This document shows, piece after piece, positions 1 through 25,523 of a DNA stretch of 25,523 bases. The notes under the pieces were generated by a model. That model had not been told where the DNA came from. It did not search any database and saw nothing but the letters and a program-made list of their open reading frames with translations. The stretch's first letter is position 1. The number at the start of each line of letters is the position of its first letter. The DNA is from a virus, in IMG/VR virus record IMGVR_UViG_3300042934_000688, positions 1 through 25,523 of that record, one strand, 5' to 3'. Position numbers and translations under genes: made by a program.

Positions 1-800
1 TAAGCTAGTCGATACTGTTCGATCTCGTTGCTTGCATCGCTAAGTGTGCGGTCATAGGCGTCAATCAGGCTTAATACCTTCTCTGCATCGCCCTTTTGCT
101 CTTGATTGTTTGGAACGCCAAACAAAGGGTTATAGTCAAATAGGTGTTCCTTTTGGTCTTTAAGCTGTAATCCGTCTGATTCATCATCAAAATAGTAGAC
201 ATCTGTTTCGTCGTAGAACTCCACATAAAGGTGTGATCCTTTGTCGGCATCATCCAATCGGTAATAGTAGAGTGAGTAATCCGGATGTGTGATGTCCTTG
301 CCGATGAATACCACATGCCAAGGCTCGATGTCCTCAATGTTCGGCTTACCTTCTGTGTCGATATAAGCAAGACGCGCCGCATATCCACAGATCGCCGCAT
401 ACTTTCCACATTCAGCATCTTGATCGGCTGAATTGCTCCGCAACAAAAAGTCTTGAATCTCCTGTTTCCACGTGTCCTTTGCGTTGTCTGCCCTATACGT
501 GATCGGATGACCAAACATATAGCCAACCTTGGTGTCAACTATCTCTGAATCAAAACTGTTATTGAGCATGTTATTTACTTTGTCATCAAGACGAAAGACG
601 TTTTTAGATGGCCCGGCTCCGTAATCGATCGGTGATCGATTAAAGATCTTCGGCCCGTCTTTCTGGTCAGCAATATAGCGATGATAAAGCCGCTTCATCC
701 GTTTATGATCGGCTTTGTGATCGCTGATGATTTCTTGTACTGTTTCAACCGTGATGCCATTTTCTTGAATTCTCTTGATATATTTAATAAATGGATTCAT
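1..800 (-). CDS. Phage portal protein, SPP1 Gp6-like (C-terminus outside window)
   Basis: The frame is open from an ATG at 800 to the window edge (266 codons), so only the N-terminal part is present. The protein begins MNPFIKYIKR and contains the stretch VDTKVGYMFGHPITY near residue 95, followed by an acidic Asp/Tyr-rich segment, as in SPP1 Gp6-type portals. Portals form the dodecameric channel at one capsid vertex through which DNA is packaged; the terminase docks on it. A strong AAGGAGG lies 7 bases before the ATG, and the start overlaps the end of terL by 17 bases, the usual terS-terL-portal order. The family call is from recognised sequence features, not from a search. A shorter open frame on the same strand at 71-538 is a shadow of this gene. 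Confidence 0.85.
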   Translation of the reverse strand, partial: MNPFIKYIKRIQENGITVETVQEIISDHKADHKRMKRLYHRYIADQKDGPKIFNRSPIDYGAGPSKNVFRLDDKVNNMLNNSFDSEIVDTKVGYMFGHPITYRADNAKDTWKQEIQDFLLRSNSADQDAECGKYAAICGYAARLAYIDTEGKPNIEDIEPWHVVFIGKDITHPDYSLYYYRLDDADKGSHLYVEFYDETDVYYFDDESDGLQLKDQKEHLFDYNPLFGVPNNQEQKGDAEKVLSLIDAYDRTLSDASNEIEQYRLA

Positions 801-2022
801 CGTTTTCCCTCCTTCCTATCCTGCGCTGTGCTGGACGATTATTCGTGTATATTCCGTATCTGAGAGCGTCGAGTACGTCGTCCCACAGCTTCACAGGTTC
901 GCCGGTCGTTTCGTTCCACACATACATATAAATTTCTTTTTTAAAACGCTGTACACGTTCATTGACGATAAATAGCTTGTTTTGTTTAAACAGTCGAGCG
1001 ACTTCTTCAATCCCTGCGATTCTCGACTTGTCTCCGTTAATTGCACGAATATGTTCCCGTCTTAACCGTTTAATGTGTTCTGGCCGCGCTGTATCGCAAT
1101 AAAAATGGATGTTGCCGTAGCGCTCTTTCACGCCCATTGCAACATCCACCCAATAATCAATTTCTTCATGCTGTTTTGCATGTTCTTCGATTAAATAAAA
1201 ATCTCCTTGATCATCTTCACCGATCACGACGATGGCGCCATAGTGCTCATAACCAAAATCGACACCAGCAAAATATTTTACAAAGTTTATATCTTTCAAC
1301 TTCGATTCGTTGACGTAATGAATTTTTTGATTGAAGTCCTTGTAGACAACGCCTTCAGCGGCGCACCAGACACCATTGATGTCGCGATCATAAAACATTC
1401 CGCTTGGTGTTGTGGCTTTTATGTTTTCCCTGTACCGTTCATTGAGAAATGTATTGTCATCAAGCACATAATGAAAATCAACAATGCTTTTATCTGGATT
1501 GTCAATGTAATCACGTTTCAACCAATGTTCTGGCTGATCCGGGTTGGTATCAATCAGAAGCCTTGCACCAGTCGCTGAACAGCGCGACTTAATTTCGTTG
1601 AATACTTCTTCGTTAGCCAATGACGCTTCGTTGACATATGCGCCATAAGCCGTCATACCACGAATACGGCTTAAATCATTGATCTTGCTGTGCCCGGTGC
1701 AGACAACAAGCACGCCGAATAACTTGAATCGGTTGTACTTGTCCATATGAAAGCCGATTCCGTACTTGTTAGTCAACTCAATCATGACGTTCTTCGCCAA
1801 GTTTCCCAAATTGGCACCAGCAAGAATATACTGTGGATTTTCTACTCCCTCATTTGTCGCTATTCGTTTGACACGCTTTAATTCATATAGGAATAGATCA
1901 TTGTCAACCACCGTTTTTCCCGTTCGCTTGGCGCCGTGATTAATCAGCATGAAAAAATCATGATTAAACGCATACCGGAGCACCTCTTGCTGTTTCGGCG
2001 TATATAGTTTATTCAGGCTCAT
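784..2022 (-). CDS. terL: Terminase large subunit, PBSX XtmB-like
   Basis: A 412-residue packaging motor. It hydrolyses ATP to translocate DNA into the prohead and cuts the concatemer. Walker A is GAKRTGKT (residues 30-37) and Walker B with the catalytic Glu is YVNEAS (Glu132). The coupling segment LIDTNPD follows at 156-162. The C-terminal RNase H-like nuclease domain has candidate metal-binding Asp residues in GVDFG (Asp255), YCDTA (Asp310) and DDVLDALRYG (381-390). I chose the ATG at 2022 rather than the upstream in-frame start at 2049 because AGGAGG sits 9 bases before it and the protein then starts MSLNKLYTPKQ, typical of the family. The start overlaps terS by 14 bases, consistent with translational coupling. 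Confidence 0.93.
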   Translation of the reverse strand: MSLNKLYTPKQQEVLRYAFNHDFFMLINHGAKRTGKTVVDNDLFLYELKRVKRIATNEGVENPQYILAGANLGNLAKNVMIELTNKYGIGFHMDKYNRFKLFGVLVVCTGHSKINDLSRIRGMTAYGAYVNEASLANEEVFNEIKSRCSATGARLLIDTNPDQPEHWLKRDYIDNPDKSIVDFHYVLDDNTFLNERYRENIKATTPSGMFYDRDINGVWCAAEGVVYKDFNQKIHYVNESKLKDINFVKYFAGVDFGYEHYGAIVVIGEDDQGDFYLIEEHAKQHEEIDYWVDVAMGVKERYGNIHFYCDTARPEHIKRLRREHIRAINGDKSRIAGIEEVARLFKQNKLFIVNERVQRFKKEIYMYVWNETTGEPVKLWDDVLDALRYGIYTNNRPAQRRIGRRENDESIY

Positions 2023-2755
2023 TAGTGAACGCCTCCTCGAGCTTGTCAAGGAGATTTCCTAGCTTGTCCTCTGTCTTTGCTCCGGTATCCGTTGTAGCCC
2101 GTATCTGGTCAATACGAGCCTGAACAAGTTCAAGCTTATGATGACGTTCGTCAAATTCGTCAGTGATCTGTAAGAACTGTCTAATGGATGTCCTTAACTC
2201 ACTAATCGCTCTGCTTTGAGCATTTAAAAAAGCTGCCTGTTTTTCATAGGCGAACCTTACTTCGTATTTATCAGCACCAGAATCACCCCATCCAGATTGG
2301 CTTTGCTCCTTAGATAAGTCATCAGCATTATTCACAAGCATAATTTTCTGTGAACGAATGATTGCAGTGTACTGAATAACAATTTGATCCCAAAGCAAAT
2401 CCTCTGGTTTTCTTCCAGCGATTGTTTCCATAATCTCTTTATATTCTTCCGGCAGATACTTGGAAAGAAAGCCGAATTTCTCAGCAGCTTTGTTCCGTTT
2501 GGCAAATTGGTTTTTCGGGTTATGGTTGCCACTTCTCTTGCTCGGCGCACGTGCCTGCTTCTTACCTTTCTGTTTCGGAGTACTCCGTTTATCCGTTTGG
2601 AGTACTCCGTTCCAATTGTCTTTTGACTTCCATCCTCCAATTGTCTTTTCGGGGACTTCTAACTGTCTTGCTATCTCACGATTCGTGATCTCGCCTTTAC
2701 ATTCTTTCCACATCTTAAAGGCTTCATCACGCCGGGGATCTCTTTTCCTTGGCAT
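2009..2755 (-). CDS. terS: Terminase small subunit, PBSX XtmA-like
   Basis: A 248-residue DNA-recognition subunit of the terminase. Residues 8-48 (RRDEAFKMWKECKGEITNRE onward, ending in GGWKSKDNW) form the helix-turn-helix seen in the XtmA family. A basic, Lys/Arg-rich linker follows (about 55-90), and the C-terminal half is helical and suited to oligomerisation and TerL contact. It binds the packaging site and recruits TerL. It is the first large gene of the late operon, and the next gene overlaps it. GGAGGTG is about 12 bases upstream of the ATG, rather distant, but a stop in the same frame directly upstream leaves no better start. Confidence 0.88.
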   Translation of the reverse strand: MPRKRDPRRDEAFKMWKECKGEITNREIARQLEVPEKTIGGWKSKDNWNGVLQTDKRSTPKQKGKKQARAPSKRSGNHNPKNQFAKRNKAAEKFGFLSKYLPEEYKEIMETIAGRKPEDLLWDQIVIQYTAIIRSQKIMLVNNADDLSKEQSQSGWGDSGADKYEVRFAYEKQAAFLNAQSRAISELRTSIRQFLQITDEFDERHHKLELVQARIDQIRATTDTGAKTEDKLGNLLDKLEEAFTNEPE

Positions 2756-2790
2756 TACATGTCACCACACCTCCATGATCGGATTGATGA

Positions 2791-3057
2791 TTATTTCAAG
2801 TTGTTCACGCCAGCATTAAAATAGATGTTCAGTGATACACCGACGATCATCAGTAAAATTCCAATTGCAATAAGCGTCAGCTTCAACCATACTTCAAGTT
2901 GAACAGTCAACGGAGAAAGTATTAATGCTGTTCCTAATGGAATCAAGACTATTGATATCATGAACACAATTAATAGCATCATTGTCTTTTCTCTGCTTTC
3001 CATCCATTCTTCTTCACACACCTCAGGAACGGGCACAGCCCTTCCCGATCCAACCAT
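2791..3057 (-). CDS. Small membrane protein, two predicted transmembrane helices
   Basis: An 88-residue protein of unknown function. It has a short hydrophilic N-terminus ending in ESREK, then two hydrophobic stretches, roughly residues 27-48 (MMLLIVFMISIVLIPLGTAL) and 57-80 (VWLKLTLIAIGILLMIVGVS), joined by a short loop. Two-helix topology resembles phage holin-like or superinfection-exclusion proteins, but nothing diagnostic is visible and its place before terS is not a lysis locus. Starts are possible at 3063 or 3057. The latter is better spaced from AAAGG. A start at 3003 (MESREKT) is also possible. It lies between a 35-residue membrane peptide and terS, downstream of the late promoter/terminator. 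Confidence 0.65.
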   Translation of the reverse strand: MVGSGRAVPVPEVCEEEWMESREKTMMLLIVFMISIVLIPLGTALILSPLTVQLEVWLKLTLIAIGILLMIVGVSLNIYFNAGVNNLK

Positions 3058-3078
3058 ATACATCCTTTACAGCCATGC

Positions 3079-3186
3079 TCAGGGTCTTTTATTTTCATTT
3101 CTCTGTCCTACAATTCCGGATACACATAAAAATATCCAAGTGATATAAAGTAGCGTTAGCCACGGGTGATCATAAATGGGTTCCAT
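3079..3186 (-). CDS. 35-residue putative membrane peptide
   Basis: ATG at 3186 is preceded by AGGTG at 9-base spacing and opens a 35-codon frame, starting MEPIYDHPWLTLLYITWIFL and ending in NENKRP. It has one hydrophobic segment (about residues 9-27) with a basic C-terminal tail. It is the first open frame after the terminator at 3204-3237 and precedes the two-helix membrane protein. No family is recognised. It is supported only by the ribosome binding site, its hydrophobic pattern and its position. Confidence 0.45.
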   Translation of the reverse strand: MEPIYDHPWLTLLYITWIFLCVSGIVGQRNENKRP

Positions 3187-3203
3187 CTTTATCAGCACCT
3201 TTG

Positions 3204-3237
3204 TATAAAATAAAAGGACACCCGAATAGGTGTCCTT
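3204..3237 (-). terminator. Rho-independent terminator before the late genes
   Basis: A perfect 9-bp stem (AAGGACACC at 3214-3222 with GGTGTCCTT at 3229-3237, loop CGAATA) is followed on the minus strand by TTTTATTTTAT. It would stop leftward transcription coming from the early operon, and also any transcript starting at the promoter just upstream (near 3258), before the packaging genes. Confidence 0.85.
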
Positions 3238-3257
3238 GTCCGTTCATATAATTCTCA

Positions 3258-3320
3258 CAATACAATCATAACAGGTTTTTCTTGCCATTAAGGTTCAACA
3301 TGAGACCGTTAATGGTTCAA
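3258..3320 (-). promoter_or_regulatory. Putative late-operon promoter with 22-bp-spaced direct repeats
   Basis: On the minus strand an extended -10, TGTTATGAT (3265-3273), lies downstream of two TTGAACC repeats (complement of 3314-3320 and 3292-3298), exactly 22 bp apart, about two helical turns. An inverted pair, CCATTAA/TTAATGG (3285-3291, 3309-3315), overlaps them. No good -35 box is present at 17 bp, which fits an activator-dependent promoter. ArpU, encoded just upstream, is the obvious candidate activator. The predicted start near 3258 is only about 20 bases before the terminator stem. Confidence 0.5.
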
Positions 3321-9660: not shown

Positions 9661-10584
9661 TCACCCTTTCCCTCTCTGGCTCGGTCCTTCGACTGCATGG
9701 CACCGATCATAGGCCATTCCGTTTATCAGCCTGTCTGCTGCTGCAAATCCAATCCGTTCAGCTAGCGTTGCCCTATCTTCATTACTGCTGAAAATGATCG
9801 GCTTACGGTTCCGATAACGATAATCAATGATCTGATAATAAAGGCTCTCTTTGGCTTCTGACGGCTTCGCCTTGCCAATGTCATCCCATACCAGTACATC
9901 AACCTGTTCAGCACCATTTAAAAGCTGTCTGAGCCGTTCTCCGCTGTCATTCATCATCTTGGCTTGTGTAAGTTCATCCATCAATACCGCATCCGATACG
10001 ACCAAAACGCTGTATCCGCGCTTGAGTAAAAACTTTGATGTGGCGACCTGTAAATGCGTTTTGCCAATGCCGAAATTGTTATGATCTGCTTTGGCTTGCG
10101 CCTTATCTTCAAGCGTTTGCAGATTTCGTATGTTTTGTTCGCCAAAAGCAGCGATAAACCCGAAACTGTTATTCTTGCTGTCTTTAATAGATTCAAAATC
10201 TTTGAGGTAGTCAGAAATCAACTGGTACATATCCCTTTGCCATTGGTAATCTCGCCGAAAGTTTTTAAATTGTGCTTCTTTGAATTCGTCTGGGATCATA
10301 GATTCTTTAAAAAGCCGATCCATCCGCGCTCTCGTGACGCATGAACATGTCCCATACACTGGTGTGTACTTCCATTCACCATTGGGATACTGAACATTGT
10401 TTTCGATTTCAGCCCCTTCTTTAATCTTTACAAGTCCAGTGTCTCTACATTTTGGGCAATCATATTCATTTCCAGACGGCTTGTGCTGCTGCTGATTCTG
10501 CAAGTGCTTGTTCATAGCTACTTTTTTCTGGAGATCGGCCATGATAGCGTCGAATGTCTGAAACGTTGGTTCTCGCTTTGCCAC
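9661..10584 (-). CDS. DnaC-like helicase loader ATPase
   Basis: A 307-residue AAA+ ATPase expected to load the replicative helicase on the phage origin with DnaD. The N-terminal zinc-binding-like cluster is CPKC (43-46) plus CSC (80-82). Walker A is FGIGKTH (171-177) and Walker B is LVWDDIG (231-237), followed by FSSNED and a C-terminal Arg-rich segment. The P-loop is unusual: it is preceded by an inserted Asn/Lys-rich segment (about 148-170), a form I have seen in related phage loaders. The start is GTG at 10584 with AAAGGA about 10 bases upstream. This makes the first 119 bases overlap dnaD in another frame. Internal ATGs at 10542 and 10515 would shorten the overlap. Confidence 0.87.
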   Translation of the reverse strand: MAKREPTFQTFDAIMADLQKKVAMNKHLQNQQQHKPSGNEYDCPKCRDTGLVKIKEGAEIENNVQYPNGEWKYTPVYGTCSCVTRARMDRLFKESMIPDEFKEAQFKNFRRDYQWQRDMYQLISDYLKDFESIKDSKNNSFGFIAAFGEQNIRNLQTLEDKAQAKADHNNFGIGKTHLQVATSKFLLKRGYSVLVVSDAVLMDELTQAKMMNDSGERLRQLLNGAEQVDVLVWDDIGKAKPSEAKESLYYQIIDYRYRNRKPIIFSSNEDRATLAERIGFAAADRLINGMAYDRCHAVEGPSQRGKG

Positions 10585-11305
10585 CGGCAGTCATTCCTTT
10601 CTTCTCTTGCCATTTACGTTGGAATTCGCGTGCTTCCTCTAAGGTTGTTACGTTATCATCAAGCCATTTTTTTATGATTCCCTCTACATAGCTGATCCGT
10701 TTGTTGTCCTCTTTGAGTGCTACCTTCATAGCAGCAATCACGAGATCACTAGATGACTTGTCCACCAGTTCATCAAGAGCCTGTGCATTAATTGGTGATA
10801 AGAAGCTATGATAATTCTCTTGATAAAACTGTGATACTTGCTTGTACTTTTGAATATCATCATAGAAAGGATCTGGTTTACTACTACTACTTGATATATG
10901 TTGTTTAATATCTGTGTTTATATCTGGTATAGGTTCGCCCTTTTGGTCACATCCATCTGACCGTTTGGGCATTTCCATTTGCCCATTTGGGCAATGGCTT
11001 TTCTTATCTTCATCTGTTCCAAGTGCGTACCATTTGGTCCGGTCATACGCTTTTTTATTAAAGTTTCCAGTTACAATCGCTCTTGAATCCTCGAGATTAT
11101 TCAATATTCTCCTAATCTGTTTGTATGACCAGAATGGGAACAACTCTTCGAAAGCTTTCATCGAGTTAAATGTCCAATAACGACCTTCGTAAAAGTTAGT
11201 TCCGTTCGCTTTGTTTTTCAAAATCCAAAAACGGAAATTGCTGAGCATGATTGCTTCATCTACTCCGTACTTCTTAGCGTCATCGATGTTGAATGAGTAA
11301 TTCAT
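10466..11305 (-). CDS. DnaD-domain replication initiation protein
   Basis: A 279-residue protein with an N-terminal winged-helix region (MNYSFNIDDAKKYGVDEAIM, FWSYKQIRRILNNLEDSRAI) and, after a Ser/Pro-rich linker (about 120-150), a DnaD/DnaB C-terminal domain (about 160-240) with YVEGIIKKWLDDNVTTLEEA. It probably recognises or remodels the phage origin and recruits the DnaC-like loader. ATG at 11305 overlaps the HNH stop (ATGA) and is chosen over GTG at 11323. The last 119 bases overlap dnaC in another frame. The low-complexity linker could hold origin repeats, but I saw no clear iterons there. Confidence 0.88.
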   Translation of the reverse strand: MNYSFNIDDAKKYGVDEAIMLSNFRFWILKNKANGTNFYEGRYWTFNSMKAFEELFPFWSYKQIRRILNNLEDSRAIVTGNFNKKAYDRTKWYALGTDEDKKSHCPNGQMEMPKRSDGCDQKGEPIPDINTDIKQHISSSSSKPDPFYDDIQKYKQVSQFYQENYHSFLSPINAQALDELVDKSSSDLVIAAMKVALKEDNKRISYVEGIIKKWLDDNVTTLEEAREFQRKWQEKKGMTAGGKARTNVSDIRRYHGRSPEKSSYEQALAESAAAQAVWK

Positions 11306-11634
11306 AACAAACACCGATCCCACTCATCCCGGAAATAATCCGGTCCGTACCGTTCTTCAAATTCGCGCTGCCAGTGGTTAATCAAATTTTGGTGTGTCTG
11401 CACATTTCCATGGCATAGCCAGCAAAACAATATGCCATTTGTTACAACGCCCCTGCCACCTTGTCCGCGCCCTTTCACGTGATGAATCTGCAATCCCACA
11501 TGACTACCACATATTTGGCATTCGTCATGATCTCGCTCTCTGATTTGATTCCGTACTTTTTGACTAAATTCTGATCGCTGCCCCCATGTCGGTTTCAATC
11601 GTTTATACTTTGGCTTTGGTACGGCTATCCCCAT
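11302..11634 (-). CDS. HNH endonuclease
   Basis: A 110-residue nuclease with a complete HNH/zinc-finger core: CQIC (39-42), IHHVKGRG (His51, His52), NGILFC (Asn66) and CWLCH (71-75). ATG at 11634 with AAGGAG 8 bases upstream is preferred to GTG at 11643. It sits between the single-strand-binding protein and DnaD rather than next to the terminase, so it may process replication or recombination intermediates, or be a free-standing mobile nuclease. There is no sign that it interrupts another gene. Confidence 0.87.
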   Translation of the reverse strand: MGIAVPKPKYKRLKPTWGQRSEFSQKVRNQIRERDHDECQICGSHVGLQIHHVKGRGQGGRGVVTNGILFCWLCHGNVQTHQNLINHWQREFEERYGPDYFRDEWDRCLL

Positions 11635-16921: not shown

Positions 16922-17234
16922 AAATAACTCGTTCAGCGTATTTGGGATACATTTCAGCGAGATAGTCAGAATGCTTGTCCACCCAGTCAATTAAGTTCCA
17001 AATCGGAACACACTTTTTCCCAACGTCAGGCACACGCGGAAATCCTTTAATATTCATGATCCGGTTTGCTGTTGGCTGGCTGCAACGGAAGAATTTCATG
17101 ATGTCATGATAGTCAAGCATTGCAGGCCAGTTAGCTGCTACTGCATATTTGGCTGACATGCCTTGAAGCACTTGTTCAGTGACCTGCTTGGCAAGATCAT
17201 TGGTGAATTGTGGATCGGTCTCGAGTTTAAGCAT
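16920..17234 (-). CDS. Helix-turn-helix (excisionase/AlpA-like) protein
   Basis: A 104-residue protein starting MLKLETDPQF. The C-terminal half, DYHDIMKFFRCSQPTANRIM followed by GFPRVPDVGKKCVPIWNLIDWV, has the winged-helix pattern of excisionase or AlpA-like proteins. It could act in excision with the integrase or as an early regulator. ATG at 17234 with AGGTG upstream and an 8-base overlap with the previous gene is preferred over the longer frame from 17309. Confidence 0.65.
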   Translation of the reverse strand: MLKLETDPQFTNDLAKQVTEQVLQGMSAKYAVAANWPAMLDYHDIMKFFRCSQPTANRIMNIKGFPRVPDVGKKCVPIWNLIDWVDKHSDYLAEMYPKYAERVI

Positions 17235-18015
17235 TCGATACACCTGCCTTTGGTACCGAAATGCCGTACTTAATGGCAAATTCTTTGACGACTGCGACAT
17301 AGATTTCAATTAATCGTTTGTCATCAGCGATTACATCCAACTTGCTGAGCTTATCCCGTTTCGATTTGTTGACACCTTCGTCCGCCATGCGACGACGTTT
17401 GTTTGTCAGTCGAGTTTCGAGGTTGAATCCACCACGGCGTTCGACTTCTTTGTAAATATCGTGGCGCACCGTTTGATGTGCTTCGTATCCACCTAGATTG
17501 CGGGCCATTCGGTTTATAAGATTAGTAGAATCTTTGCGCCATTGGACCGAGTTGAGAGCAACAACATTTTTGATTCCGTCTATTCTTATTTCAAGTTCGC
17601 TTTGCTTACGTTCAATGTTTGCAACCGCCGTAAACATGTGACCGAACATTTGCATCTGTGGACTTAAATCATCTAGTTTTACTTGGTTTGGATTGAAATA
17701 ATTCTCTTCAAGGTGATCAAATTGTTCCCAAGCTTTATCTGTTCCAAGAAGTTTGCAATGACGACTCGCACCACGATGCGTCCATAGATAAAGGCTTGAA
17801 GCATTTTTTCCAACGAGGTCGCTTTCAGATACCTCGTTCTTAAACTGTTTCAGTTGCTCACCAACTAAGAAAATAAAATGTTTTCCTTTTTCAAACTTTG
17901 ATGAATTACGATTAAAATTTTGTTTAATTCTTTCTGGTGTTGTTTCATATTGTTCAGCCAATTGATCCGTAGTTAAAACGCGCTTATTTTTGTAATTAAC
18001 AACCTGTGGTTCCAA
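17227..18015 (-). CDS. ORF6N/ORF6C antirepressor-like protein
   Basis: A 262-residue protein with an N-terminal ORF6N (KilA-N-related) domain (about 1-115; KNKRVLTTDQLAEQYETTPE, FEKGKHFIFLVG, LYLWTHRGASRHCKLL) and a C-terminal ORF6C domain (about 125-240; NRMARNLGGYEAHQTVRHDI, YKEVERRGGFNL). Such proteins are phage antirepressors or DNA-binding regulators of the lysis-lysogeny decision. The start is TTG at 18015, with GGAGG 8 bases upstream, directly after the cro-like gene. It is the second gene of the early operon, where antirepressors are usually found. Confidence 0.85.
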   Translation of the reverse strand: MEPQVVNYKNKRVLTTDQLAEQYETTPERIKQNFNRNSSKFEKGKHFIFLVGEQLKQFKNEVSESDLVGKNASSLYLWTHRGASRHCKLLGTDKAWEQFDHLEENYFNPNQVKLDDLSPQMQMFGHMFTAVANIERKQSELEIRIDGIKNVVALNSVQWRKDSTNLINRMARNLGGYEAHQTVRHDIYKEVERRGGFNLETRLTNKRRRMADEGVNKSKRDKLSKLDVIADDKRLIEIYVAVVKEFAIKYGISVPKAGVSNA

Positions 18016-18252
18016 TTAGATTGCCTCCCGTTCCATTTTGTTCTTTGTTTCTAAGAAGTTTTCATCAAAAAAATATGCTGTCGGCAAATTAAGTGCTTTA
18101 CAAATTTTTTCGTATTCATCGGTTTTAATCGCTTGCTGATTCGTCATCATCCTTGAAAATTTAGAATCATCAATTGATGAACGCTCCGCGATAAATCCGA
18201 ATTTTAGACCGTTTTCTTCGATATATCGGCGAATACGATTATTTATCTTCAT
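18016..18252 (-). CDS. Cro-like Xre-family regulator
   Basis: A 78-residue single-domain helix-turn-helix protein. The recognition segment is FGFIAERSSIDDSKFSRMMT, then DEYEKICKALNLPTAYFFDE. It is the first gene of the leftward early operon and is divergent from the repressor, the classical Cro position. GGGAGGTGATGAT places an ideal ribosome binding site before the ATG. It should bind the same TCTAAGAA-type operators between 18276 and 18389 and shut off repressor transcription. Confidence 0.83.
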   Translation of the reverse strand: MKINNRIRRYIEENGLKFGFIAERSSIDDSKFSRMMTNQQAIKTDEYEKICKALNLPTAYFFDENFLETKNKMEREAI

Positions 18253-18296
18253 ATCATCACCTCCCGATTCTTATTATCTAAGAACATTACATACAT

Positions 18297-18325
18297 AATA
18301 TAATTCTTACTTTCTAAGATGTCAA
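18297..18325 (-). promoter_or_regulatory. Leftward early promoter
   Basis: On the minus strand TTGACA (complement of 18320-18325), 17-base spacer, TATATT (complement of 18297-18302). This is a near-consensus sigma-A promoter for cro and the whole early operon. The operator-like repeat at 18312-18320 sits in its spacer, which would allow repression. Confidence 0.85.
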
Positions 18326-18353
18326 TACTTTATTCATATTTTCTAGGAATTTA

Positions 18354-18382
18354 TTCTTTACAACTAGGAATGAGGTTATAAT
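18354..18382 (+). promoter_or_regulatory. Rightward repressor promoter
   Basis: A TATAAT at 18377-18382 stands about 20 bases before the repressor ribosome binding site. The -35 is poor: TTCTTT at 17-base spacing or TTTACA at 14-base spacing. An operator-like repeat (18381-18389) overlaps the -10 and start point, consistent with autoregulation. Confidence 0.55.
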
Positions 18383-18403
18383 CTAAGAAACGAGGTGAAA
18401 CGA

Positions 18404-18850
18404 ATGTCTGTTCTATCTGAACGGTTAAAATCAGCCAGAGATCATAAAAATCTTAAGCAGACTCAAGTTAAGGAAAGAACAGGAATCAACAATAAAACTC
18501 TAAGTGGTTATGAAAATGGTGTTAGCATTCCTGATCCCGACACCTTAACAAGACTAGCTGATTTGTACGAAGTATCAACTGACTATTTATATGGACGCAC
18601 AAACGATCCAAGGCTAAGGGCTGACGGAATGCCATCTCTCAATGAAAAATATGAAAACGATATCGCAAAAAGAATGAAACAGATTAGGGAAGATTTAAAG
18701 AAAGGGAGTGATGGAGAATCAATAGCTTTTTATGGAGAACCTTTATCCCCTGAAGCAACCGAATCACTTTTGCAGTCATTAGAATTTATTGAAAGGCAAA
18801 CAAAACTAATTAACAAGAAATATATTCCTAAGTCACGCCGCCAGGAGTGA
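18404..18850 (+). CDS. Phage repressor, Xre family (ImmR/CI-like)
   Basis: A 148-residue repressor that keeps the early operon silent in the lysogen. The N-terminal helix-turn-helix domain (residues 1-65) contains LKQTQVKERTGINNKTLSGY and ENGVSIPDPDTLTRLADLYE, ending YLYGRTNDP. The C-terminal helical region is short, without a LexA-type Ser/Lys autoprotease. This fits the ImmR type, which is inactivated by a separate metalloprotease, encoded here by the next gene. ATG at 18404 with GAGGTG 6 bases upstream is preferred over the GTG inside that site. The stop overlaps the next gene's start region. Confidence 0.85.
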   Translation: MSVLSERLKSARDHKNLKQTQVKERTGINNKTLSGYENGVSIPDPDTLTRLADLYEVSTDYLYGRTNDPRLRADGMPSLNEKYENDIAKRMKQIREDLKKGSDGESIAFYGEPLSPEATESLLQSLEFIERQTKLINKKYIPKSRRQE

Positions 18851-18855
18851 TTTCA

Positions 18856-19275
18856 TTGTCAAAACACATTGATGACATCATCAGCGAATTAATTAAAAGG
18901 TACAATACAAATAATCCATTAGATATTGCAAAAAAAATGAATATAAATCTAATTGAATTTACTCTTGATAAAGAACTTTGTGGATACTACCGTTATATCA
19001 GAAGAAACAAATATATCGTAATCAACAATTCATTGGTTGATTCTATGAAATTATTTGTCATCGCGCATGAATTAGGTCATGCCATATTACACCCTAGAAT
19101 TAATACATACTTCTTACGCAGATACACCTTATTTCCAGTTGGCCGAATTGAAAATGAAGCAAATGAATTTGCAACAAAATTACTTATCAGGCTTTACGAA
19201 CTGCATGAAGGAATCACTAAAGAAAATTTATTAAAAAATTGTGGTATTCCGCCAGAAATGGCTAGATTCATATAA
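18856..19275 (+). CDS. ImmA/IrrE-family metalloprotease
   Basis: A 139-residue zinc protease. The HExxH motif is AHELGHAILHP (His71, Glu72, His75), and the downstream ENEANEFA (about 99-106) supplies the third ligand. In ICEBs1 the homologous ImmA cleaves the repressor ImmR on SOS or quorum signals, so this enzyme probably induces the prophage by cutting the repressor encoded just before it. A TTG at 18856, 8 bases after AGGAG, is preferred. GTG at 18847 overlaps the repressor stop but sits on the ribosome binding site. Confidence 0.85.
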   Translation: MSKHIDDIISELIKRYNTNNPLDIAKKMNINLIEFTLDKELCGYYRYIRRNKYIVINNSLVDSMKLFVIAHELGHAILHPRINTYFLRRYTLFPVGRIENEANEFATKLLIRLYELHEGITKENLLKNCGIPPEMARFI

Positions 19276-19287
19276 ATGGAGGGTTAA

Positions 19288-20880
19288 ATGTTGCAAATCA
19301 AGGATAAATGGTATTATTCAACACCACTAATATCTTTATTAATTGCGTTTTGGTTTTTAATCATACCCGGGATAATTGGAATTATTCTTCTTATTATACA
19401 AATTAAAAATCGAAACAAAGTCATGAAAGACATTGGACTTATTGATCTTGAAAACATTAATAAACAGATTTCGGATAAAGAAAAATCATCCCATAACTTG
19501 GAAGAAAAGATTAACAAGTTATCATCTGAACTCAAAGCTAAACAAAATGAATTAGAATCATCTAAGCGAGAAATAAAATTTATAAAAGATACATTGAATG
19601 ATTTAGAAAATGAAAAGAAAAACGAAATTAATATTGTAAAACAGATAAATTCCAAAAAAGAGCATCTTGATAAGTTAAAAAGTGACAATGATAAATTGTC
19701 TACTCAGATTAAAGAAAACGAAAAAATGATCCGAGAATTCACCTTAACAAACGACGAAATAACCTCAGCAAAAAACGAGTTGAAGGAATTAAAAGAGAAA
19801 ATCATAGAAATGAATGAAGAAATTCTTAGCCAATCATTCGGATTCTACGAGCCACATTATCATTTTGAAAACTCCGAACAATACCAAGAGAAATTAAAAG
19901 AAATAAGAACGCATCAGAAACAGATGGCTAAAACAAAAGAAGCTGTTGAATTCTATGATAACTGGACCCTTGATGGCAGCAAACAAAAGGGTCAGGCAAT
20001 GAATAACGATAATATTCGTCTTGCTTTACGGGCATTTAATAGCGAATGTGACACAGCAATTAACAAAGTTAAATTTAACAACGTTGAGACTTGTGAAAAG
20101 AGAATAAATGCATCTTACAAAACAATTAATAAAGCTAACCAACGAAACCGAATAGAAATCAAAAAAGAATACTTGGCTTTGAAATATGATGAACTTTATC
20201 TCGCTTATGAATATGAGCAGAAAAAGGAAGAAGAAAAAGAGGAACAGCGACAACTTAAAGAGCAAATGCGTGAAGAAGCCAAAGTCCAAAAAGAAATTGA
20301 ACGTGAGAAGAAAAAAATTGAAAAAGAAGAACAACATTTCAGTAACGAATTGAAGCGTTTGAGAACCGAAGCTGAGAGCGCTGAAGGCGAATCCAAGCTG
20401 GACTTACTCAATAAAATCGAAGAACTGGAAACTGATGTTCAAGAGCTCGCAAAAGACAAAGAAGATGTATTCAATCGTGAGAAGAACACACGCGCTGGCT
20501 ATGTATACATCATTTCCAACATCGGTTCTTTTGGCGAAGATGTTTACAAAATAGGTCTAACACGTCGCCTGGATCCTACAGAACGCGTAAAAGAATTAGG
20601 TGATGCATCCGTCCCATTCACTTTCGATATCCATGCAACCATATTTAGTGATGACGCTCCTGCCCTCGAAGCAGCATTACATAGAACGTTCGATGATCGA
20701 CGTTTAAATAAAGTTAATCATCGAAAAGAATTCTTTAGTGTTAATCTCGATGAAATAAAATCTGTAGTAGAAAAGAATCATAACAAAACGGTAGAATATA
20801 CAAAACTTGCAGAAGCACAAGAATATCGCCAATCCCTTGCCATTGCCAAAAAGAAAAATATCAGTCAAAACGTCGGATAA
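19288..20880 (+). CDS. Membrane-anchored coiled-coil DUF4041/GIY-YIG (T5orf172/MUG113) protein
   Basis: A 530-residue protein of distinctive architecture. Residues 13-40 form a hydrophobic hairpin (LISLLIAFWFLIIPGIIGII, LLIIQIK), probably two membrane helices with both ends cytoplasmic. A Lys/Glu-rich coiled coil follows (about 50-185), then a DUF4041-like region (about 190-320, with FGFYEPHYHFENSEQYQEKL) and a second coiled coil (about 310-390). The C-terminal T5orf172/GIY-YIG-type nuclease domain (about 405-500) has GYVYIISN, DVYKIGLTRR, PTERVKELGDASVPF, a candidate catalytic Glu in APALEAALH, and VNHRKEFF. GGAGG precedes the ATG. It is first in a three-gene operon between immunity and integrase genes. 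The domain pair is common in prophages. An anti-phage or superinfection-exclusion role is inferred. Confidence 0.8.
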   Translation: MLQIKDKWYYSTPLISLLIAFWFLIIPGIIGIILLIIQIKNRNKVMKDIGLIDLENINKQISDKEKSSHNLEEKINKLSSELKAKQNELESSKREIKFIKDTLNDLENEKKNEINIVKQINSKKEHLDKLKSDNDKLSTQIKENEKMIREFTLTNDEITSAKNELKELKEKIIEMNEEILSQSFGFYEPHYHFENSEQYQEKLKEIRTHQKQMAKTKEAVEFYDNWTLDGSKQKGQAMNNDNIRLALRAFNSECDTAINKVKFNNVETCEKRINASYKTINKANQRNRIEIKKEYLALKYDELYLAYEYEQKKEEEKEEQRQLKEQMREEAKVQKEIEREKKKIEKEEQHFSNELKRLRTEAESAEGESKLDLLNKIEELETDVQELAKDKEDVFNREKNTRAGYVYIISNIGSFGEDVYKIGLTRRLDPTERVKELGDASVPFTFDIHATIFSDDAPALEAALHRTFDDRRLNKVNHRKEFFSVNLDEIKSVVEKNHNKTVEYTKLAEAQEYRQSLAIAKKKNISQNVG

Positions 20881-20892
20881 GGAGTGATCAAA

Positions 20893-21831
20893 ATGCCCTC
20901 AGCAAAAGATGTTCGATCTTCTCTAAAACCATTTGTAGGAAGCATGACAGCATTCAATAATTCGGATGCTTTATCAAAAATATTATTTGATGATGAAAAA
21001 ATTGAATTAGCCGGTCAGTGGAAAGTCGGCAATATTGCCGTTCTTACAAAACAGAGACTAATATTTTTTGAAGGTACGTTTAAAGTAAAACAAGAATTGT
21101 ATGATCGGGATAAAATTAAGGGCTTTCACACCGAACGCACGACAAAGCATGATTATTTGAAATTCATCCATGACGAAATAGACATTGTGTATCCAGTTGA
21201 TCGATCAAAAAAGATAACTGACTTTGCAATAGCATTAGAAAAAACGTTAGGGTCTGTTCATGAGGATGATCATGGTATTAAAGAAAAAGTTGATTTAAAA
21301 GGTAAAACAAGCGTTGGTCTTGACATCATCAATGGTGCTGATCAATTAGAATTTAAAGCACAAATATGGTATGTAATGTATCAAGAGGTACCAGGTGAAG
21401 TTAAATTTGCAACCGAATCCAGATTACCATTAGGAGAATCCTTCAAACTGATCGGTTTTGATCGAACAGAGAATTTCAAACGAAGCATCAGCAATATTAT
21501 TGGTGCCGCTGCACTTGGAAGAATATACGGTACAGCAGGAGCGATAACCGGCGCTATAGCTGCTCAAAATATAGGAAAAGACTTTTCTACCGCATCCATT
21601 CTTTTACAACGTAAAGATGGTGTACAGTTTATACTTATTGTTAAGTGTAATCAAGATACATTGAAACAGCTTCAAACGTTCATTACTTACGTTGTCAAAA
21701 ACGAGGAAAAACAGCCATCACCTACCCTTTCCCCTGCCGATGAGATCAAAAAATACAAAGAACTGCTTGACATGGATGCAATCACTCAAGACGAATTTGA
21801 CGCTAAGAAAAAACAGCTATTGGGGTTGTGA
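20893..21831 (+). CDS. Bacterial PH-domain and SHOCT-domain protein
   Basis: A 312-residue protein. The N-terminal bacterial PH-like domain (about 25-118) has LAGQWKVGNIAVLTKQRLIF and FHTERTTKHDYLKF. A second beta-rich domain follows (about 130-260), interrupted by a Gly/Ala-rich hydrophobic segment (about 198-228, with IIGAAALGRIYGTAGAITGA) that could insert in or lie on a membrane. The C-terminal 32 residues are a SHOCT motif (DEIKKYKELLDMDAITQDEF, then AKKKQLLGL), usually an oligomerisation or anchoring element. ATG at 20893 has AAGGAG about 8 bases upstream. It starts 12 bases after the GIY-YIG gene, so the two are surely co-expressed and may work together at the membrane. Confidence 0.78.
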   Translation: MPSAKDVRSSLKPFVGSMTAFNNSDALSKILFDDEKIELAGQWKVGNIAVLTKQRLIFFEGTFKVKQELYDRDKIKGFHTERTTKHDYLKFIHDEIDIVYPVDRSKKITDFAIALEKTLGSVHEDDHGIKEKVDLKGKTSVGLDIINGADQLEFKAQIWYVMYQEVPGEVKFATESRLPLGESFKLIGFDRTENFKRSISNIIGAAALGRIYGTAGAITGAIAAQNIGKDFSTASILLQRKDGVQFILIVKCNQDTLKQLQTFITYVVKNEEKQPSPTLSPADEIKKYKELLDMDAITQDEFDAKKKQLLGL

Positions 21832-21833
21832 TT

Positions 21834-21968
21834 ATGGCAAAGAAAAGTGCCGAACCAGATGGATGTATGGGTTGTTTCACCGGAATATTAGCAATCCCCT
21901 TCTTGATTATTCCTGCAATCATCATAATGGCAGTATTATGGTCACTCTGGCATTGGATATTCGGTTAA
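21834..21968 (+). CDS. 44-residue membrane protein
   Basis: ATG at 21834, two bases after the previous stop, opens 44 codons: a polar N-terminus with CMGC, then one long hydrophobic helix (ILAIPFLIIPAIIIMAVLWS, ending WHWIFG). Translation is probably coupled to the PH-SHOCT gene, since only GGGG lies upstream. It ends immediately before a terminator, so it is the last gene of the accessory operon. The paired Cys could bind metal or be lipid-modified; no family is recognised. Confidence 0.6.
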   Translation: MAKKSAEPDGCMGCFTGILAIPFLIIPAIIIMAVLWSLWHWIFG

Positions 21969-21970
21969 TT

Positions 21971-21993
21971 GCCGCTCATGCGGCTTTTCTTTT
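21971..21993 (+). terminator. Rho-independent terminator
   Basis: GCCGC (21971-21975), loop TCAT, GCGGC (21980-21984), then TTTTCTTTT. It ends the repressor-to-accessory transcript before the integrase gene. Confidence 0.85.
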
Positions 21994-22034
21994 ACGCACG
22001 AAAAGAACATATATTCGTTATAGGAGATGATCTC

Positions 22035-23207
22035 ATGCCTTCTTTTAGCAAGTATAAAACAAAACAAGGTTGGCGATGGATGTTTAAACTTGAATTAGGT
22101 ACAGATCCGAAAACAGGAAAAAGACGAAATACAACGCGCAGGGGCTTTTTACACAAACCGGATGCCGAAGAAATATGTCGCGGTCTTCAGAGCAAGTTAA
22201 GGAACGGTGAGTCCATCGTTGAAAATAATGTGATCGTCAAGGATTACATGAAAGCTTTTCTTAACTATTATGCGTCAACTGGTAAGGTGAAGCAACAAAC
22301 GGTCAATTTGCGAAAAACGCAGGCAAAACACCTTAATAATCAGTTTGGATTTTTAAAAGTTCGGTTAATCACTCATGCCATGTACCAACAATTTATTTTT
22401 GATCTAAAAAATATTAATCACCTATCCAAATCATCTATATCCGGTATTCATGCACTTGGCAGTATGTTCTTTAAAAGAGCCAAGAAAGACGGTATTATCT
22501 CTAAAAGCCCTGCTGACGATACTGACCTTCCGGCATTTGAAGTATCCATTGAAGAGATTGAAACCATTTCTGAAAAGTATTTGGAAAAAGATGAAATCAA
22601 TCTTTTCCTCGACAAAGTAAAAGAAGAAAAATATAAGGATATGCCCAACTTTTTCTTTACACTTATTTGGACAGGCATGCGCATTGGTGAATTGATCGCA
22701 CTGACTTGGGATGATGTTGATCTTGATAACAGTGAAATCAATATTAGAAAAACATTCGTCAGCTCGTTACGCTCAACATCATCACCAAAAACAAAATCGT
22801 CAGTAAGAAAAATATCCATTGAGCCGGAAGTCATTCAAATGTTCAAAAAGCAACACGCACTGATAAGCGAAGTCGAACTTCAAGACGGCCATTTCAATAT
22901 CCACAATCTCATTTTCCCGAAACTCATTCATTTTGATCGTGGAAGTTACTATGATCAGAGTTTAATTGAACGAATAATGAAACGAGTGATGAAAAAAACA
23001 GGTATTAAAAAAACCCTAACCCCTCATTCTTTGAGACACACCCATGTTTCGCTGATGGCCGAAGCCGGAGTGTCACTAGAAGATATTATGGTTAGAGTTG
23101 GTCATCATAATGATGCAATTACAAAACAAATTTATATGCATGTGACGAAAAGCCGAAGAAAAAATACGTCGTATAAATTTGGTGAATTGATGCGAAAGAA
23201 AGGCTGA
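22035..23207 (+). CDS. int: Tyrosine-type site-specific integrase
   Basis: A 390-residue phage integrase. The N-terminal arm-binding domain (about 1-55; SFSKYKTKQGWRWMFKLELG) recognises short repeats such as GCGGTCA downstream. The core-binding domain is at about 65-165. The catalytic domain carries the Arg in GMRIGELIALTWDDVDL, a Lys in the beta-hairpin (KTKSSVRKIS), HSLRHTHVSLM (His-x-x-Arg), GHHNDAI and the nucleophile Tyr in KQIYMHV. ATG at 22035 with AGGAG 8 bases upstream is preferred over 21969, which runs through the terminator. The reading frame is intact. Confidence 0.93.
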   Translation: MPSFSKYKTKQGWRWMFKLELGTDPKTGKRRNTTRRGFLHKPDAEEICRGLQSKLRNGESIVENNVIVKDYMKAFLNYYASTGKVKQQTVNLRKTQAKHLNNQFGFLKVRLITHAMYQQFIFDLKNINHLSKSSISGIHALGSMFFKRAKKDGIISKSPADDTDLPAFEVSIEEIETISEKYLEKDEINLFLDKVKEEKYKDMPNFFFTLIWTGMRIGELIALTWDDVDLDNSEINIRKTFVSSLRSTSSPKTKSSVRKISIEPEVIQMFKKQHALISEVELQDGHFNIHNLIFPKLIHFDRGSYYDQSLIERIMKRVMKKTGIKKTLTPHSLRHTHVSLMAEAGVSLEDIMVRVGHHNDAITKQIYMHVTKSRRKNTSYKFGELMRKKG

Positions 23208-23219
23208 TTTTTTCATCAA

Positions 23220-23439
23220 GCGGTCATTTCGCGGTCAAAACAAATTTTCCCCTCTAAAAATTCCTTTGTTAAGCCATTTTATGTTATTTGCCTAAAATCC
23301 TTGACATTAATTGCTATGTAATTTCTATTATTGTCATTTATGCTCATGGATATGTTTGATAAAATATTAGTCAATTTTCGAGAACGTTTGTTCTATATAA
23401 TTCAGAGTGATTTTTAATCTTGCGGTCAAAATGCGGTCA
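23220..23439 (+). other. attP-like region with paired arm-type repeats on both sides
   Basis: Four direct copies of GCGGTCA occur: 23220-23226 and 23231-23237 on the integrase side, and 23422-23428 and 23433-23439 on the far side. In each pair the copies are 11 bp apart. Between the pairs are about 185 AT-rich bases that should contain the strand-exchange core. Having both arms together is the arrangement of attP, not of attL or attR. The core itself cannot be identified without the host site. Confidence 0.6.
23381..23394 (+). promoter_or_regulatory. LexA (SOS) box overlapping a promoter
   Basis: AGAACGTTTGTTCT contains GAAC-N4-GTTC, the core of the Bacillus LexA/DinR box. A TATAAT follows at 23396-23401, so the box overlaps the spacer of a rightward promoter reading to the ribbon-helix-helix gene at 23485. 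The -35 is poor. Confidence 0.6.
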
Positions 23440-23484
23440 TATTCCTCCACCTGCTTCATACCTATAAGACATGGAGGTGATGTG

Positions 23485-23655
23485 ATGGCAAAGCACGGAT
23501 TGAATACCACGTTTGATGCAGACATATACCAGTCTTTTAAAAGGAAGTGTGAATCGAATGGATTAGGCATGAATGAAGTATTGCAATTGTTTATGGTTGA
23601 GTACATCAACGGGAATTATGAGGTTGAGAAAACAATGTCATTGAAGAAAATGTAA
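23485..23655 (+). CDS. Small ribbon-helix-helix protein
   Basis: A 56-residue protein with the ribbon-helix-helix pattern: strand GLNTTFDADI, helix YQSFKRKCESNG, helix MNEVLQLFMVEYINGN. It is probably a dimeric DNA-binding repressor of the Arc/CopG kind. GGAGGTG lies 5 bases before the ATG. It lies downstream of the LexA box and upstream of structured DNA and the parM cassette. It may regulate those genes; the binding site is unknown. Confidence 0.75.
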   Translation: MAKHGLNTTFDADIYQSFKRKCESNGLGMNEVLQLFMVEYINGNYEVEKTMSLKKM

Positions 23656-23790
23656 AAGGCAACCCGATACCCTGCGACGGATCACGGATTGCCTACCTGT
23701 CAGCACGCGGGCCAACACGTTTATTATAGCTTATTCATTGGGAAAACCCAATGACCAATAAACCAAACGGCCCGCTGACCCAAAAACCCT
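23656..23790 (+). other. Highly structured noncoding region
   Basis: No gene is seen. AGGCAA (near 23658) pairs with TTGCCT (near 23688). Then GTCA and GCGGGCC (near 23699-23713) pair with GGCCCGC and TGAC (near 23768-23779), enclosing a perfect 8-bp hairpin, TCATTGGG-AAAA-CCCAATGA. Three ACC-starting units follow in it at 7-8 base spacing. It could be an RNA, a partition or replication site, or a transcription attenuator. A named RNA family was not recognised. Confidence 0.5.
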
Positions 23791-23806
23791 GATTTTAAGT
23801 TGCGTC

Positions 23807-23826
23807 TCGCGCGCACGTACGCGCGA
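23807..23826. repeat. CG-rich palindrome
   Basis: A 20-base near-palindrome with 7-base arms TCGCGCG and CGCGCGA around CACGTA, standing out in AT-rich surroundings about 30 bases before the start of the next gene. It is a candidate operator or protein-binding hairpin. Confidence 0.55.
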
Positions 23827-23856
23827 ACCATCAAGGGAGAGGAGCGGACTTTTGTT

Positions 23857-24189
23857 TTGAAAAAACACGATATCAAATTTGCTGTGAACGTTGACGACAA
23901 ACGAAAATTGATGTTGATGGCTTACGATGCTGATCTATCGCTGACTCAATTTTGCTCAAAGCTTGTCCGAGAAGAACTCGTGAGATATCGCGTGTATTCG
24001 AGAATAACTTACCCAACTAATGGAGTGCTTATACACGTCAAATTGGAGGATGATTATTTCAAGATGGTGCAGACGCTGTCTGTGCAGTGGCTTCTACCCT
24101 ATCGCCAAGTCGTGCATCGTCTCGTGACAAATTATCTTAAAGAACCGAATCCAATTGACGCAATGGTAATTTCTTATACGGATTTATAA
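23857..24189 (+). CDS. Ribbon-helix-helix-like hypothetical protein
   Basis: A 110-residue protein. Its N-terminal 45 residues (KKHDIKFAVNVDDKRKLMLM, AYDADLSLTQFCSKLVREEL) have the strand-helix-helix order of ribbon-helix-helix DNA-binding proteins. A second, similar segment (VLIHVKLEDDYFKMVQTLSV, QVVHRLVTNYL) may be a degenerate repeat of the same fold. The most likely start is TTG at 23857, about 12 bases after GAGGAG. The longer frame from 23800 crosses a CG-rich palindrome and is unlikely. It directly precedes parM and may control it. Confidence 0.6.
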   Translation: MKKHDIKFAVNVDDKRKLMLMAYDADLSLTQFCSKLVREELVRYRVYSRITYPTNGVLIHVKLEDDYFKMVQTLSVQWLLPYRQVVHRLVTNYLKEPNPIDAMVISYTDL

Positions 24190-24193
24190 AAAC

Positions 24194-24212
24194 TGTGGTC
24201 CAATGTACCACA
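24194..24212. promoter_or_regulatory. Inverted repeat before parM
   Basis: TGTGGT (24194-24199), spacer CCAATGT, ACCACA (24207-24212) lies just upstream of the parM ribosome binding site. It is a candidate operator for ParR or the preceding ribbon-helix-helix protein, or a weak attenuating hairpin. Confidence 0.5.
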
Positions 24213-24229
24213 AAATTGGAGGAGTCAGT

Positions 24230-25198
24230 ATGAATAGCTTGTCTTATATAGATTTAGGGTACGGATGGACGAAAGGAATCAGCAATGACAACCGATTTTT
24301 TGAACCGTCCGTGGTCGGAGACGCACGACCTTTAATGGATGAACAGCAGAGAGATGGGGATATGATTTATCGCGATGATGAGCAATCGCTATTCGTTGGT
24401 GGTCTCGCGCTCCGGCAAAGCAAGATTAGATATAACAGCACCGGCGAAAATAAAGCAGATACGTGGACGACGGCCGTCATACTCAAAACGGCATTAGCAC
24501 ATCTATCTCCCACTGGACCGGTTAATATCGTTACGGGGCTACCGGTGGACTATTATATGAAACAAAAAGCATCAATGGCACAGTTGATTGACGGGCTGAA
24601 CACTGCCGGACCGTATCAATTGGAGGTCGTCGGTCGTCGTCATCCTGTTCGTGCAAATCCGCTGATTGCCAACTATAAGATCGTTCCGCAGCCGTTTGGC
24701 AGTGCTATGGACTATCTATTAGATGAATATGGTGACGTTGTCAAGATGCATGATGCCAAGAAAAGTATATTAGTAATTGACGTTGGCTACTATACACTTG
24801 ATCTGCTCGAATTGGATGGTATGGAGATTGGCAAAAATAGCCGGTCGCCGCACGGACTTGGCGTGGATACTGCCTACAACCTCCTACATGGCTACCTCGT
24901 TGATATGGTCGGCCACGCTCCGGAACGCTTTGAAATGGATAGATACGTGCTTTCAGGTGAATATGCTGGATATGACATTCGTCCACTTATCAAACACGCG
25001 TTTCAGGCACTCGCACAGCAAATTTTATTAGAGATCGACAGTTTATCAAGTTATTACGAGTTATTTTTATTAACCGGTGGCTGCGCTCCGACAATTAAAG
25101 AGTTTATCGATCTGCCAAACTTAGTTGTGCTCGAAGATTCACAGTTTGGTAATGTTCGAGGCTATGAAAAAATCGGTGCTCGGTTATGGTCGAAGTGA
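24230..25198 (+). CDS. parM: ParM-like actin-type plasmid segregation ATPase
   Basis: A 322-residue actin-like protein. Phosphate-1 motif YIDLGYGWTKG is at 6-16; a central SAMDYLLDEYG helix is followed by phosphate-2 LVIDVGYYTLDLLELDG (about 180-196). SPHGLGVDTAYNLL lies near 205-218, and the adenosine motif LLTGGCAP near 280-287. Length and motif spacing fit the ParM/StbA group. ParM polymers push sister plasmids apart when bound to ParR on the centromere. GGAGG lies about 7 bases before the ATG. It overlaps the parR-like gene by 13 bases. The position next to an attP-like site is unusual for an integrated prophage. Confidence 0.88.
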   Translation: MNSLSYIDLGYGWTKGISNDNRFFEPSVVGDARPLMDEQQRDGDMIYRDDEQSLFVGGLALRQSKIRYNSTGENKADTWTTAVILKTALAHLSPTGPVNIVTGLPVDYYMKQKASMAQLIDGLNTAGPYQLEVVGRRHPVRANPLIANYKIVPQPFGSAMDYLLDEYGDVVKMHDAKKSILVIDVGYYTLDLLELDGMEIGKNSRSPHGLGVDTAYNLLHGYLVDMVGHAPERFEMDRYVLSGEYAGYDIRPLIKHAFQALAQQILLEIDSLSSYYELFLLTGGCAPTIKEFIDLPNLVVLEDSQFGNVRGYEKIGARLWSK

Positions 25199-25422
25199 TT
25201 CGGGTCCGGTTAAGAAAAAACAAAGATGATGACCTGCGCGCGGCGTTTGAAGGATTGGCTGACGACCGGAGCGATCTGATTCGTGCGGCGTTAAGAGCCT
25301 ATCTATTCAACCGATCAGAACAGCCGACAACAATTGCTAAGCCTGTCCCCAAATTGAAAAAGAAGGAAAAACCGGACGAAGCCGTCACAGGTGGGCTAGA
25401 TAATCTTTTGGGCAACTTTTAA
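25186..25422 (+). CDS. ParR-like ribbon-helix-helix adaptor
   Basis: A 78-residue protein. Residues 3-42 (VIRVRLRKNKDDDLRAAFEG, DRSDLIRAALRAYLF) form a ribbon-helix-helix DNA-binding domain. A Pro/Lys-rich linker then leads to the C-terminal LDNLLGNF, the type of short hydrophobic tail that ParR adaptors use to cap ParM filaments. It overlaps parM by 13 bases, so expression is coupled. GTG at 25195 is an alternative start. It should bind a centromere (parC), which is not obvious here, and probably represses its own operon. Confidence 0.82.
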   Translation: MVEVIRVRLRKNKDDDLRAAFEGLADDRSDLIRAALRAYLFNRSEQPTTIAKPVPKLKKKEKPDEAVTGGLDNLLGNF

Positions 25423-25506: not shown

Positions 25507-25523
25507 AAAGTGCGATTTGCACG

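Follow-up and report, generated by a model that had tools for sequence, protein, structure and literature searches.

A temperate phage that integrates appears, on balance, to carry its own ParMRC system for the phase in which its genome is a free circle. The window, meaning the whole stretch of DNA analyzed here, is the entire IMG/VR record IMGVR_UViG_3300042934_000688 of 25,523 bases, and the record ends at position 25523. With a little more than even confidence, we read it as a fragment of a siphovirus-like temperate phage in its unintegrated form, with a partition cassette that belongs to the phage. The usual division is between phages that integrate and phages that live as plasmids and have partition genes. 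Here the integration and partition modules stand side by side. As judged from substitution rates, purifying selection acts on the cassette, while the integration module is exchanged (tyrosine or serine integrase, different target genes).

The window encodes both terminase subunits, DnaD/DnaC-like replication genes of the phage type, an integrase, and a CI-like repressor together with an ImmA/IrrE-type peptidase (Table 1), which identifies it as a fragment of a temperate tailed phage. A DNA similarity search of phage and plasmid collections with the window returned nothing similar. Close relatives were found in two IMG/VR contigs and as prophages in Sporolactobacillus, which is therefore most likely the host. 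The relatives encode lysis and tail genes. Such genes are also expected to the right of ParR in this phage, the right part of its genome being reconstructed from the relatives. Between the ImmA-like gene and the integrase, the plus strand codes for a 530-aa DUF4041/T5orf172 protein (19288-20880) that matches the PD-Lambda-1 anti-phage defence model at 1e-169. It is probably a prophage-borne defence against other phages.

Table 1. Positions of the features in the window, with strand and basis of assignment.
Feature	Position	Strand	Basis
Terminase, large and small subunits	784..2755	-	Profile matches
DnaC-like loader and DnaD/DnaB_2-like initiator, phage-type replication genes	9661..11323	-	Profile matches
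CI-like repressor and ImmA/IrrE-type peptidase, lysogeny module	18395..19275	+	HTH_3 4e-15, Peptidase_M78 6e-16
Tyrosine integrase, 390 aa	22035..23207	+	Phage_integrase 8e-27, Arm-DNA-bind_4 7e-10, PHROG integrase 2e-66
Left arm-type pair, GCGGTCA-N4-GCGGTCA	23220..23237	+	Equivalents behind the integrase in S. terrae, S. kofuensis and G015
attP centre, 184 bp between the pairs	23238..23421		Lies between the arm pairs; core position not located
Right arm-type pair, GCGGTCA-N4-GCGGTCA	23422..23439	+	Similarity to sister phage G004 restarts at 23436
Small gene 1, Arc/RHH-like, 56 aa, first of the cassette	23485..23655	+	PHROG Arc-like 1e-5; conserved in relatives
Six phased 8-bp repeats, RCC every 8 bp, candidate parC/operator	23745..23791	+	Conserved in relatives; shuffles
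Conserved near-palindrome CGCGCGCACGTACGCGCG in front of gene 2	23808..23825		Alignment of relatives
Small gene 2, 110 aa, TTG start, RHH-like by eye	23857..24189	+	PHROG 5779; 92% / 74% identity
ParM-like actin, 322 aa	24230..25198	+	ALP_N 2e-22; PHROG partition protein 4e-46
ParR-like adaptor, 78 aa, overlaps the end of parM	25186..25422	+	Position; C-terminal motif; RHH_1 weak

Arm-type sites in the window and its integrated relatives

The first-pass annotation had described an integrase followed by two pairs of GCGGTCA repeats, ribbon-helix-helix (RHH) genes and ParM/ParR. That layout is borne out, with the integrase followed by the two pairs (copies 11 bp apart, 184 bp between the pairs), two small genes, ParM and ParR; the RHH assignments are its weaker part. 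The four copies of the heptamer are at 23220-23226, 23231-23237, 23422-23428 and 23433-23439, and just two others are found in the window, at 48 and 8529. GCGGTCA is the sole heptamer of the window that gives two 11-bp-spaced pairs within 500 bp, and none of 300 Markov shuffles of the window produced a double heptamer pair. We also compared 30 tyrosine integrases, taken from viral contigs and from genomes of Sporolactobacillus. For a direct-repeat pair directly behind the integrase stop codon, 11 bp was the best or joint-best spacing in most of the 30, and the heptamer of the pair differed by integrase type. An 11-bp spacing is expected of arm-type sites, and the GCGGTCA pairs are supported as the arm-type integrase sites of the attachment site. 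Relatives of the window integrase in viral contigs reach 28-38% identity, no higher.

Three relatives from Sporolactobacillus provide the integrated form. The S. terrae prophage (124 kb contig) is integrated in comGA. Its GTGGTCA pairs (L002, 9185; L023, 75) are beside the two halves of that gene: one is behind the integrase and adjoins the front half of comGA, the other adjoins the back half and the partition cassette. When the host flanks are joined at their common CCGGATAT, they give a 363-aa ComGA open frame. In the other species examined comGA is an intact open frame, and the disrupted S. terrae copy loses similarity near residue 218. The interruption is at the Walker B region (L002, 8611-9057; L023, 20-796), and the strain has presumably lost competence. 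Insertion of a prophage in comGA is also known from Staphylococcus pseudintermedius (PMC7029219). The integrase of the S. terrae prophage has an in-frame stop codon (L022, 18461-18463) and its ParMR cassette is intact; this prophage may no longer excise by itself.

The S. kofuensis prophage uses a tRNA 3' end as its site. A 46-bp core from the 3' end of the tRNA occurs both in the phage contig and at the end of a contig from the chromosome, and both phage ends have arm pairs of the TTTGGGGCA type. A third Sporolactobacillus species (genome G015) carries its element in the 3' end of rpsI, with an rpsI-end core and an ATGGTCA pair at each end. The same genome has, to the left of attL, a second, diverged copy of the integrase 3' end, arms and rpsI-end core (L073, 11326-11502), perhaps the remnant of an earlier integration.

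The split of the two arms between attL and attR, which the first-pass annotation had predicted for an integrated prophage, is thus seen in S. terrae, S. kofuensis and G015, each with one equivalent pair per prophage end. As both pairs are joined in the window and split in these integrated relatives, we take the window to be unintegrated DNA, and its earlier description as carrying an intact attP is upheld. Joined arms alone do not indicate a plasmid state. Any temperate phage gives them, and virion DNA, an induced prophage and concatemers look alike.

The earlier proposal of a host attB matching part of this region found no counterpart in the 15 Sporolactobacillus genomes searched, where blastn with the window attP gave no significant match. 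A 20-bp segment (23210-23229) does match exactly an intergenic hairpin in S. terrae (C15) and in a further genome (G005, C30). We did not keep it as an attB candidate, since the matched site is in a hairpin between genes and the segment falls on one of the arms instead of the centre, where a core is expected; the match is probably due to chance.

Composition and ownership of the partition cassette

The ParM protein is clearly actin-like by its sequence, and ATPase activity is predicted. With a family profile it matches the pCBH ParM in the PDB at 1e-19. Its closest homologue is that of Bacillus phage vB_BboS-125 (54% identity), followed by those of lytic Bacillus phages (about 25-27%) and of plasmids (~27%, full-length matches). 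The putative ParR is assigned from its position and a C-terminal LD.LLG.F motif, which it has in common with G015 and vB_BboS-125 (variant LLNNF in S. kofuensis); its RHH_1 match (E 0.029) is below the cut-off. The gene 2 product is the most conserved protein of the cassette and has no Pfam match. By profile, the RHH assignments are weak. Structure predictions were uninformative for gene 2 (pLDDT 52) and ParR (pLDDT 60), and a PDB profile search with the two adaptors returned chance-level matches. The RHH-like gene 2 is upstream of ParM, the side on which an AlpAC-type system has its adaptor gene, but ParR is downstream, and this parM-parR order is that of plasmids. Among the relatives, dN/dS is about 0.04-0.14 for gene 2, ParM and ParR where it is not saturated, the signature of purifying selection on the cassette.

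Gene 2 is preceded by an array of perfectly phased 8-bp repeats, newly found here, that is a candidate parC. The array has six copies in the window, in its sister phage G004, in S. terrae and in S. kofuensis, and seven in G015; it is kept in all five although the surrounding sequence has diverged. None of 20000 shuffles of the intergenic stretch contained a six-copy array, and for periods from 7 to 11 the window has no other array with five or more copies. A centromere built of 8-bp units has precedent, since the parS of mycobacteriophage RedRock consists of eight copies of an 8-bp repeat (PMC7157519). Like the phage studied here, RedRock and other cluster A mycobacteriophages have a partition cassette at the integration locus, with 8-bp direct repeats as parS (PMC7157519). 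There, however, a ParA-type parABS replaces the integration cassette, whereas the window has both side by side and an actin motor.

S. terrae, S. kofuensis and the IMG/VR relatives have the same gene order, with the attachment site followed by small gene 1, gene 2, ParM and ParR, and then by other phage genes and the lysis/tail genes. All relatives have the cassette within the phage, beside the int-distal attachment site. G015 also has it next to the right arms, but inverted.

In the sister record G004 the two ends share an exact repeat of 127 bases, as is usual when an assembly is closed, and the record closes to a circle of 47,711 bp with lysis and tail genes beyond ParR. A closed circle with such genes beyond ParR had been proposed as a check on the window's parent sequence, and it holds in this sister phage. 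The two phages are 99.5% identical at 1-3286 of the window and 94% at 17225-21984, and similarity resumes at 23436 (91%). The block in between that holds the integrase and attP (21985-23435) is swapped, and G004 has the same partition cassette beside a large serine integrase (L004; Resolvase 6e-43). In other relatives the cassette is found with tyrosine integrases that differ in their arms and target genes. Because it stays while the integrase/att module is exchanged, the cassette is the phage's own and not part of a flanking replicon. The exchange itself is a clean one between close phages, a tyrosine integrase with its attP having changed places with a serine integrase and its site as a whole module.

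Possible roles of the actin system

In the reading that we lean toward, ParR, the RHH-like gene 2 product, or both would bind the 8-bp array as centromere and operator, and ParM filaments would push or position free circular phage genomes. This would keep a low-copy circle from being lost in the interval before an infecting phage integrates, or after excision until lysis or reintegration. The phage would then be an integrator with plasmid-style insurance and not a prophage borrowing plasmid genes, a view that we hold with the same modest preference. A known counterpart is srpMRC of the SXT/R391 integrative and conjugative elements, which acts on the excised form (PMC4489591). There too a ParM-type cassette adjoins int in an integrating element, and it is needed in the excised circle only (PMC4489591). 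Unlike the window, these elements are conjugative and Gram-negative and have srpMRC in one operon with int; in the window, which derives from a tailed phage, attP is between int and the cassette. The need for active partition in the short free-circle phase of integrating phages becomes testable, and the system is compact (the array, two or three small proteins and an actin) and comes from a harmless lactic acid bacterium.

The main rival is that the actin system serves the lytic phase, AlpAC-like filaments carrying excised DNA to the site of replication or packaging, with partition at division incidental. We give this a real though clearly minor share of the probability. Its model is AlpAC-alpS of the Corynebacterium glutamicum prophage CGP3, which is likewise chromosomal and combines an actin-like protein and a DNA adaptor with repeats before the operon; AlpC/AlpA raise phage copy number and bind those repeats (PMC4446434). 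The order alpA-alpC and the motif TTAAnnG of CGP3 nevertheless differ from the window, which has parM-parR as in plasmid systems, a phased 8-bp RCC array, and the cassette beside attP. A lone phased array before gene 2 resembles a centromere, which also counts against a purely lytic use. In favor of one, lytic Bacillus phages commonly encode ParM homologues, and in the relatives the cassette is near the lysis end. The closest homologues, those of vB_BboS-125 (MH884509; ParM 53-54% and ParR 51% identity), are encoded downstream of holin/endolysin genes. Unlike the window, that phage has no annotated integrase or repressor, and an array search found no phased 8-bp array in it. Since close homologues of ParM are encoded by this phage and more distant ones by lytic Bacillus phages, a role in the lytic cycle is possible.

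The first-pass annotation had called the element a probable phage-plasmid, a label that is supported only in part. Taken strictly, it would mean that the lysogen exists chiefly as a circular plasmid maintained by ParMRC and integrates seldom or never, and we find this improbable. The joined attP and the closed circular sister record on which such a reading can draw do stand, but virion or induced DNA also gives a joined attP and circular assemblies, and ParM/ParR genes are not proof. Bacillus plasmid prophages carry ParM and RHH genes (PMC8026635). Those of the Bacillus cereus group, such as vB_BtS_B83, are siphoviruses with ParM-like and RHH adaptor genes (PMC8026635), but they have Xer-type recombinases and a plasmid life, whereas the relatives of the window integrate with arm-type tyrosine integrases and, in one case, a serine integrase. 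All the isolate relatives examined (S. terrae, S. kofuensis and G015) are chromosomal, each with its own integrase. Phage-plasmids typically lack an integrase (PMC12977533), and the window retains a functional-looking tyrosine integrase with intact arm sites. Among the proteins searched from this partial genome, only the phage-type DnaD/DnaC-like genes were recognized and no plasmid replication initiator, although plasmid prophages without Rep exist (PMC7157519). As the isolate relatives are chromosomal and phage-plasmids typically have no integrase (PMC12977533), stable plasmid lysogeny is less likely than either an AlpAC-like lytic role or partition of the free circle. A lasting plasmid state is possible. 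A metagenomic contig should not be called a phage-plasmid just because it has a par cassette and an intact attP.

A related idea, which we also consider doubtful, is that there are two heritable lysogenic states, one integrated and the other a circle maintained by ParMRC. The position of attP would then help to switch par on only in the circle, through transcription reading across the joined site. In the window attP separates the repressor/integrase operon from the co-directional par cassette, and we found no terminator-like site between the int stop codon and gene 1, so read-through confined to the circle is possible. The inverted cassette in G015 means that such a switch is not general.

It is very unlikely that incompatibility is the reason for keeping the cassette, with its centromere and adaptor excluding or destabilizing related phages or plasmids. 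ParR specificity sets plasmid incompatibility in Clostridium perfringens (PMC9426499), and the cassette persists under purifying selection in integrated prophages. ParM, however, is conserved together with the adaptors, as expected for an active motor. As far as comparison with the relatives goes, we reject as barely credible the alternative in the first-pass annotation of a phage integrated in a plasmid beside that plasmid's par genes: ParM-type genes are typical of low-copy plasmids and the best full-length plasmid homologues have ~27% identity, but phage homologues are closer (54%), in the relatives phage DNA encloses the cassette, with the attachment site on one side and the lysis genes on the other, the cassette stays with phages that differ in integrase and site, and the integrated state would separate the two arm pairs.

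Few further relatives of the cassette were found. Of 397 genomes sampled from the order, one has it in addition to S. terrae and S. kofuensis, and wider searches yielded no new close viral contigs with the cassette. In a prophage-like region of another genome of the order (G399), holin/endolysin genes adjoin a more distant ParM-ParR pair (L078, 7708-9094; E 2e-61).
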